A DNA stretch of 64,000 bases from Anaerolineaceae bacterium (GTDB lineage: Bacteria; Chloroflexota; Anaerolineae; Anaerolineales; Anaerolineaceae). A program made the translations under genes and the position numbers. Positions 34,203 to 49,042 of the stretch are shown here, one piece after another. Under the pieces are notes generated by a model. That model was not told where the DNA came from and searched no databases. It was given only the letters and a program-made list of their open reading frames with translations. The stretch spans positions 124,001 to 188,000 of the forward strand of contig PABH01000028.1 in NCBI GenBank assembly GCA_002702705.1. The letters run 5' to 3'. Numbering within the stretch: position 1 is the first letter of the stretch; each line of letters opens with the position of its first letter.

Positions 34203-34219
34203 GGGTTGGATCACCATCG

Positions 34220-34318
34220 TACGCATATCCCTCCGCCGGCATTATCCGGATCAGGTTTGCGGGTCGAAGACCTGAACGTCTTCCTCTCAGCCCAGCGTTT
34301 TGGGCTCCCCGTTGCCTT
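34220..34318 (-). promoter_or_regulatory. TPP riboswitch (THI element)
   Basis: Read on the - strand: GGGGAGCCC, GGGCTGAGAGG, GACCCGCAAACCTGATC, GGATAATGCCGGCG and GAGGGATATGCG, all in the canonical order of the THI box. TPP binding would favour the terminator at 34173-34202 and stop expression of thiN-thiB-thiP-thiQ-DUF402. Confidence 0.96.
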
Positions 34319-34332
34319 GTTTATTCGTTGTT

Positions 34333-47200: not shown

Positions 47201-49042
47201 TTAAACCGGCACAGGGAGGGAAAGCTCTATGGGTGTATTGGATGATAAGGCAGGATTAATGGTGACAGGGATTCGGTAATCGTAGGATTTTTGGAAACAT
47301 AACTCCATATTGCCGTGCTGGCAATACTGCAGATCGAGTTGTAGAACAATTTTTGAGGTTGAGTCCAAATGAATCGGTACCAGTATTTCTTGTCCGGCGG
47401 AAAAATCATATTCTTGATTGTTATACTTTATTCGTGTAATGGAGGCCGGATTGATCTCGAAATTATCAGGTAGCTCAAGTGCAAGCAATAATGAAAAGGA
47501 GGATGAGGACACTTCTAATGCTGGCACTTCGATTTGAGATTCGGGAAACCAATTGAGGATTAATGTGTGCGTTTTTTGAGTATTAAGATCCAAAACCCGG
47601 ATAAGGTGATTATTGGTATCTGCCACAATCAGTAAGTTTTCCAGCGTTGTGATACCTTCCGGTTCATAAAATTTGGATACCACAAACTCACCATCTTTTT
47701 TTCCGCTGTTTCCGGTTCCTGCCAGGGTGGTAACGGTTCCAGTATAAGGATCTAAGGTTTTAATTTTATGATTGTAGGTATCCGCGATAAACAGTTGATT
47801 ATTTTTATATTCTAACCCTGTGGGGTGTTGAAGTAAGGCTTTTTCTTGACTTCCGTCCACATCGCCAAAATCGAACAGTCCCTGTCCCACCAGCGTGATG
47901 GTATTTGCCTCTTCGGTGAGGGTTATGGCGCGGATGGCGCTGGCTTCGGGGTCTGCAACAAACAGGTGGTTGAGTCCGAAACATAGACCAGATGGTTGAT
48001 TAAAACTGCTGTCCTTAATTGGACCATCTACCAGTGCTTCGTAACCATTTCCGGCAAAAATGCCAAGCTGCTGGTCGTTCAGGTCAAAAACCCAAATTTG
48101 GTGACTGCCTGCCATGGCGATAAAAAGATAATTTTCTACTAAGGTTAAGTCCCAAGGAGACCGTAGGGCAGTTTGGGTAGCTTTGCCCAACGGAAATCGA
48201 CCGTGTGCTTTTTGACCCGTGCCAGCAATGGTGGTTGTTTCACCATTGTGTAAAGAAATTTGCCGGATGGCATGGTTTTCAGTATCCGCTACATACAGAA
48301 ACCCCTCTTGAGGATCACCTTGTAAAACCAAACCATGCGGGTGGTTAAATTGAACGATAGAAGTATCACCATCGATAAAACCAGCAGCGCCATTACCAAA
48401 GCTTCTTGTTACCTGTGCAATTTCTCGATTTTTATCCAATATACATTCCAAAACTCGGTGATTGCCAGTATCTGTTATCCAGAGTTTTCCGGAAGGGTGT
48501 GCCAGCACTTTGGATGGAAAAAATAATTGGAATTGATCCCTGACGGGGGGCGGGGTCGTCAGGTCTAATTTTCCGCTTTTTGTTTCAGTGGTATGTTCAT
48601 CCAGAACTGCCTGAATATGTTCTGCAATATTTTCAGCCTGAATTTCTCCCGCAACATCCGATACGATATGTCCCCGAGGGTCAATTAAAACCAGGGTAGG
48701 CCAGGCGCGCACGGCGTAACTGTTCCAAATTTTAAACCCGGCATCATTTACGACAGGGTGATGGATACCCAACCGTTGAACCGCTTTTTGGATATTGGCA
48801 GTTTCTTTTTCGGTAGGGAATTTAGCGGAATGTACGCCAATGATGACGAGAGCATCTCCAAATTGTTGTTTTAACTGGCGCAACTGCGCCACATTGTGAT
48901 GACAGTTAATTCAACAATAAGTCCAAAATTCCAGCAAAATAACTTTACCATTTAGGTCGGCCAGGCGAATTTTTTGTGTAGTATTTAACCAGGTTAATTC
49001 CTGGGGAAATTCAGGGGCATGTAAATAACCTCGAAAACGCAT
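47201..49042 (-). CDS. Thioredoxin-NHL repeat protein (NHLRC2-like), candidate selenoprotein
   Basis: Read through an in-frame TGA (48913-48911) the gene gives 613 residues. ATG 49042 has GAGGT upstream and opens MRFRGYLHAPEF, then LEFWTYC-TGA-INCHHNV. The family has a CCINC redox motif here, so TGA replaces the first Cys of CxxC (residue 44), giving a U-x-x-C form. Residues 1-150 are thioredoxin-like, about 165-470 are NHL propeller blades (HPSGKLWITDTGNHRVLE, DTENHAIRQI), and the rest is a beta domain. TGGCGC AGTT GCGCCA at 48891-48876 begins 19 bases after TGA, in the bacterial SECIS window. Without recoding only a GTG-started 563-residue product from 48892 remains, missing the active site. 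Alternatives: point nonsense mutation or sequencing error. Confidence 0.7.
48876..48891 (-). promoter_or_regulatory. Candidate bacterial SECIS hairpin
   Basis: On the - strand TGGCGC, loop AGTT, GCGCCA: six perfect pairs. The loop begins 25 bases after the in-frame TGA and has G as second base, which fits published general bSECIS models. It lacks the bulged U of the E. coli fdhF element. Confidence 0.5.

Follow-up and report, generated by a model that had tools for sequence, protein, structure and literature searches.

A gene on the minus strand of the window, the whole stretch of 64,000 nucleotides analysed here, appears to encode a selenoprotein that joins a thioredoxin-like domain to an NHL beta-propeller and that almost certainly, judging from its sequence, carries selenocysteine (Sec) at its active site. 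It is very probable that the UGA at codon 44 is recoded by SelB and a hairpin that follows it, and that the Sec44 so inserted is paired with Cys47 ahead of the propeller. The computed basis of this reading is formed by the selenium machinery genes, a conserved codon, a conserved hairpin, the alternation of the codon with Cys and the fold of the protein. A selenoprotein of this kind had been proposed in a preliminary description made from the window alone, and the machinery, the TGA/Cys alternation, the covariation of the hairpin and the lack of other frame breaks in relatives support that interpretation.

Direct reading of the minus strand confirms the frame as it had been described. The start ATG (49042-49040) has TTGAGGTAAAC, the claimed ribosome site, immediately upstream and is followed by 43 sense codons, the TGA, 569 sense codons and a TAA at 47203-47201 (Table 1). 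This is the only TGA inside the frame, and both its context, T-Y-C-[TGA]-I-N-C, and the alignment to SOQ1 place it between C and INC, at the second Cys position of the CCINC motif. Translation from a GTG in the same frame, 18 bases past the TGA, would still yield the complete propeller. The expectation that gene finding would hide the gene by starting at GTG 48892 held for the mechanical ORF list, the one kind of list examined, and is limited to it; that list cuts the NHL-thioredoxin gene at its active site.

Table 1. Positions of the proposed selenoprotein gene and its parts in the window
Feature	Position	Strand	Basis
NHLRC2/SOQ1-type thioredoxin-NHL selenoprotein gene (candidate), 613 aa, one Sec	47201..49042	-	Translation with TGA=U; Pfam; PDB relatives SOQ1 (7djj, 7djk) and NHLRC2 (6gc1)
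In-frame TGA, codon 44, proposed selenocysteine (UxxC with Cys47)	48911..48913	-	Aligned to second Cys of SOQ1 CCINC; 61 TGA and 20 Cys in 81 readable genes
SECIS-like hairpin, stem 6 bp, loop AGTT	48876..48891	-	Direct reading; fold; covariation over 54 distinct relatives
Thioredoxin-like domain, about residues 7-147	48602..49024	-	Pfam 9-127 and 32-126; AlphaFold2
NHL beta-propeller, about residues 172-498	47549..48529	-	Pfam; AlphaFold2; structure superposition
Shorter frame from GTG, 3' of the TGA	47201..48892	-	Mechanical ORF list

The 613-residue translation scores over the Pfam cut-offs for NHL, Thioredoxin_8, AhpC-TSA and Redoxin, and among solved structures the lumenal part of SOQ1 (E 1e-106) and human NHLRC2 (E 6e-94) are closest to it in sequence. 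The Pfam scan, the PDB sequence search, AlphaFold2 and superposition all give the architecture of these two proteins, a thioredoxin-like domain followed by an NHL beta-propeller. The AlphaFold2 model (43 alignment rows, mean pLDDT 86.6, modelled poorly beyond about residue 500) was aligned with VIA-align to SOQ1 7djk (Z 52.5, 486 residues, rmsd 1.6) and to NHLRC2 6gc1_B (Z 49.9, 477 residues, rmsd 1.4), and Foldseek on the same model also gave SOQ1 and NHLRC2 as PDB relatives. Residue 44 directly precedes a helix formed by residues 45-64. Where a literal CC(I/V)NC motif has Cys, the window protein has CUINC instead of CCINC, and it is best called a Sec-containing homologue of NHLRC2/SOQ1 by sequence and fold rather than a member by the letter. 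Inspection of the N-terminus by eye revealed no hydrophobic stretch, and the protein is probably cytoplasmic.

The occurrence of this TGA in other genomes was followed in the source genome with 100 relatives, and in a separate sample of 400 genomes of the phylum in which the protein was counted at E 1e-60 or better. Among the matches listed for the source genome and the 100 relatives, full-length NHL-thioredoxins are present in four genomes (the source genome, G045, G069 and G094), and all four have one TGA, at the equivalent of codon 44. The protein is held by 81 of the 400 phylum genomes, and the site, readable in 78 of them, is TGA in 58 and Cys in 20 (L208, L211 and L212 do not show it). 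With the genes of G045, G069 and G094 added, there are 61 TGA and 20 Cys forms among 81 readable genes; given that 61 of these 81, including that of the window, have TGA at the site, its presence there is not due to chance. The TGA genes belong to 20 family-level groups and the Cys genes to nine, with both forms in two groups. The alternation of TGA and Cys that the preliminary description proposed to look for in related Chloroflexota is present, exactly at the proposed Sec residue, and an in-frame UGA is aligned with a conserved redox Cys of the homologues. All 20 phylum Cys forms use TGT or TGC at the site, and every one of the 81 readable genes has Cys at residue 47. Immediately before the site, 55 of the TGA forms have Cys, three have Gly and three have Ala; of the Cys forms, 15 have Cys there and five have Gly. 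CCINC can thus do without its first Cys. Other frame breaks, which would have spoken against a selenoprotein, were not seen in the 61 TGA genes: 58 remain open for at least 440 residues past the motif, two for 427, and one for 354, where it is ended by the end of its contig.

Beyond the phylum, a search with two peptide patterns gave 481 confirmed loci, of which 80 were retained: four have TGA (L052-L055), 75 have Cys, and in one (L119) the site was not read. This search favours Cys forms because one of the patterns demands a Cys codon at the site. The records of L052-L055 are Chloroflexi or Anaerolineales, and two of these loci, L053 and L054, duplicate the genes of G045 and G094.

In the trees, rows with TGA and rows with Cys are intermixed, with at least six changes in a quick tree of 84 rows that carries a long-branch warning and at least four in a mixture-model tree of 68 rows, the latter being the 84 rows minus 16, including the long Cys row L200. 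In these rows, the site was given as X and the next three residues were absent; one group of 12 genes (f34) is represented by three rows in the larger tree and by one in the smaller, and the 76 loci from outside the phylum by 12 in each, with L052 and L055 in neither. A tree with every TGA row in one clade is rejected (p-AU 9e-11), and therefore TGA and Cys have been exchanged repeatedly at one residue. In the quick tree, the group of the window (f1, f10) is placed, with moderate support, next to Cys forms and away from the remaining TGA rows. Either several gains of Sec or frequent losses took place, and the counts of changes fit both.

The preliminary description also placed a hairpin, TGGCGC-AGTT-GCGCCA, 19 bases after the TGA, with the loop 25 bases after it, and these distances are correct. 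The hairpin is the minimum-free-energy fold of TGA+45 (-10.8 kcal/mol). Against dinucleotide shuffles of the window sequence, it is unremarkable (z -0.96; 33 of 200 shuffles at least as stable), and it becomes convincing only across relatives. In 54 distinct TGA sequences, from 65 loci, seven pairs enclose a loop, AGTT in 50 sequences and CGTT in 4, that starts 25 bases past the TGA. All seven positions are paired in 38 of these sequences, six in nine, five in three and three in four. The last four (L182, L185, L188 and L189) include one, L182, that folds with a three-base loop instead. TGA forms average 6.43 pairs of 7, the 20 phylum Cys forms 3.15, and 64 distinct Cys forms from elsewhere 2.16.

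Across the 54 TGA sequences, 91.8% of cells are paired (81.1 in shuffles, 37 to 69 in slides), 33 cells are changed on both sides (10.8 in shuffles), and the covariation is 0.341 (0.152 in shuffles, 0.072 to 0.175 in slides); none of 500 shuffles reached any of these three values. The observed count of pair types was reached by three of 500 shuffles. The number of pairs with two-sided change is no better than in shuffles (4 versus 3.3, with 228 of 500 reaching the observed value), and a slide by +1 equals it with four such pairs and gives 12 pair types versus the 11 observed. When codons were replaced at random by synonymous ones, the median z was -3.46 for the 54 TGA forms, -0.72 for the 20 phylum Cys forms and +0.58 for the 64 Cys forms elsewhere, with p of 0.05 or less in 98%, 10% and 5% of them, respectively. 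The Leu codon at the loop is TTG in all 54 TGA forms and in seven of the 20 phylum Cys forms. It is clear from these comparisons that the SECIS-like hairpin proposed after the UGA covaries across TGA forms and is mostly missing in Cys forms. Bacterial SECIS elements are hairpins just after the UGA with a G in the apical loop, and the hairpin of the window and its relatives has both this position and a G in its loop. No Rfam SECIS match was obtained in the window, where a permissive threshold gave three snoRNA-type matches, all under their gathering scores.

Four Cys forms (L140, L143, L146 and L155), all of group f41, pair at six of the seven positions, three of them with the loop AGTT; this pairing looks like a remnant from a recent ancestor with Sec.

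The source genome (5.9 Mb, 74 contigs, 97% complete) contains the complete set of genes that the preliminary description suggested searching for, each over its cut-off: selA (537 bits), selB (377 bits, with an elongation-factor domain, the SelB beta-barrel and winged-helix domains of two kinds), selD (362 bits) and a tRNA-Sec match (72 bits), which ARAGORN also calls tRNA-SeC with anticodon tca. The general tRNA model, which scored 150 of 358 first-look candidates, gave 47 tRNA genes, all typed and all without the anticodon TCA. Of the 48 typed tRNA genes, tRNA-Sec is the one with anticodon UCA, while tRNA-Trp has CCA and tRNA-Cys has GCA. Given that five of the 39 long ORFs of the window (at least 200 codons, little overlap) end in TGA, the code is the standard one, as had been stated, plus Sec.

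Some further observations were made alongside. The selD gene of the source genome (L018 1501-2436, minus strand) has an in-frame TGA of its own, in SCAG-U-A, and is a candidate selenoprotein itself. TGA and Cys also alternate among relatives in a second thioredoxin family, whose members are shorter (about 200 aa) and in most cases have a lipoprotein-like N-terminus, with FGUINC in L027, L028, L029 and L030 and CINC or CVNC in L026, L031, L032 and L033; the fold after the site is at -11.0 to -15.5 kcal/mol in the four TGA forms versus -0.3 to -7.6 in the four Cys forms. Two further TGA-bearing matches appeared in the search of the source genome and 100 relatives, and the window holds a TPP riboswitch at 34211-34320 (minus strand, 64 bits).

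Within the phylum, selA was found in 322 of 400 genomes at E 1e-40, 321 of them over the cut-off, in what is apparently the same sample as that searched for NHL-thioredoxins. It is present in 57 of the 58 genomes with the TGA form and in 265 of the 342 others (Fisher p 4e-5, relatedness ignored), and the sole TGA-form genome of this sample without it is 77% complete and has a tRNA-Sec match. For 60 TGA genomes considered together, selA was found in 58, a tRNA-Sec match in 51, both in 49 and neither in none; selA was not found in two (G045 and G417) and a tRNA-Sec match not in nine, for which our guess is incomplete assemblies and strict filters. Model matches in these and 20 Cys-form genomes, 80 in total, number 76 for selA and 70 for tRNA-Sec. 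Because selA is present in 18 of the 20 Cys-form genomes, the Cys state is not simply a loss of selenium use, and since it is so common in the phylum as a whole, co-occurrence alone is weak.

Explanations other than Sec insertion have to be weighed against these results. A pseudogene or a sequencing error, in which a Cys codon was mutated to or misread as TGA, would need a change of one base from TGT or TGC, the codons of all 20 phylum Cys forms. Nonetheless, 61 genes from 20 family groups share the TGA, their frames are otherwise open, and the hairpin retained downstream covaries; on these grounds this explanation was rejected and is given almost no credence. It is also very improbable that a different tRNA or a changed code gives the UGA the meaning of some other amino acid, such as Cys or Trp, given that TCA occurs among the typed tRNA genes in tRNA-Sec only, that TGA still ends ORFs of the window and that a hairpin after the codon fits SelB-type recoding. 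These same points led to the rejection of a changed genetic code, even though the site is Cys in relatives and an unusual SepRS/SepCysS route to Cys-tRNA has been reported for some Chloroflexi (PMC5424206, whose text mentions neither UGA nor UCA).

The UGA could also act as a selenium-dependent switch between the full protein and a 43-residue stub, perhaps together with a 563-residue protein started at the GTG. This is compatible with the selenoprotein explanation and in keeping with the position of that GTG and the whole propeller encoded after it, but the product, starting at residue 51, would be without residues 44 and 47 and the strands before them, and such a switch is considered unlikely.

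In the preferred explanation, that of a selenoprotein, SelB carrying Sec-tRNA-Sec would be recruited by the hairpin after the codon, leading to selenocysteine at UGA 44. Sec44 would lie where CCINC has its second Cys (Cys90 in human NHLRC2), at the start of helix 1 in the thioredoxin fold. Together with Cys47 it would make up a U-x-x-C redox pair that faces the cleft towards the NHL propeller, and the probable role of the propeller is to bind a partner or substrate that this pair would reduce or oxidise. In NHLRC2, the motif comprises residues 89-93 at the N-terminus of helix 1, beside the cleft to the propeller, where conserved residues cluster (PMC6107167), and SOQ1 has been reported to supply reducing power to its targets (PMC10173003).

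The preliminary description did not recall such a protein as an established family, and this agrees with what was found. A 2026 review (PMC13188914) counts 119 prokaryotic selenoprotein families or subfamilies; in its accessible parts, the inventory names no NHL-thioredoxin family and the main text does not contain the word NHL. The word is likewise absent from the main texts of PMC12013277, PMC9312934, PMC2398784, PMC5029168, PMC1794560, PMC5322559 and PMC4807772. The literature matches listed include no report of an NHL-thioredoxin selenoprotein, an earlier mention elsewhere being possible. From NCBIfam, 16 families match at E up to 1 and none over its cut-off, the best being ResA (65 versus 170 bits). 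The protein therefore looks like a new selenoprotein family of the UxxC, thioredoxin-fold kind, unreported within the literature searched, and would add to the selenoprotein families one whose domain combination is absent by name from the 119 listed.

Known UxxC selenoproteins, among them thioredoxin and the Prx-like thiol:disulfide oxidoreductase, have the thioredoxin fold, the U-x-x-C pair and the hairpin after the UGA in common with the window protein. In the accessible Table 1 of PMC13188914 they are assigned to PF00085, PF00578, PF13098, cd02966 and PF08534, and none is named as having an NHL propeller. The row 'Redoxin family protein' (PF08534, UxxC), compared by name only, could hide a relative, because the window protein passes the PF08534 cut-off (29.7 versus 26.6 bits). 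The C-terminal domains of DipZ (PDB 2hyx, 5cyy) match at E 2e-21 over residues 9-164. This match covers the thioredoxin part only, and DipZ has Cys, not Sec, in its motif SCINC (PMC6107167).

Human NHLRC2 is essential and linked to FINCA disease, and its thioredoxin domain was inactive in an insulin assay and was suggested to have no part in thiol-disulfide exchange (PMC6107167). The TGA/Cys pattern, as a record in sequences, supports a redox role for the CCINC motif that this assay had put in doubt, since repeated exchange at the position of Cys90 argues for redox chemistry by that residue. Whether the whole NHLRC2/SOQ1 family consists of redox enzymes, with the second Cys of CCINC as a catalytic nucleophile that was exchanged with Sec several times in one phylum, and with bacterial Sec forms that are readily assayed, is in our view evenly balanced. 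If so, these Sec forms would be assayable versions of an enzyme for which no activity or substrate has been found in animals and plants, and bacterial Sec and Cys forms together offer proteins for testing the redox role of the Cys90 position. Arabidopsis SOQ1 additionally has a HAD domain and a membrane helix (PMC6107167), whereas the Pfam scan of the window protein gave no HAD. NHLRC2 (6gc1) and the lumenal part of SOQ1 (7djj, 7djk) share their two-domain build with nearly the whole folded part of the window protein, and differ from it in having the second Cys where Sec is proposed.
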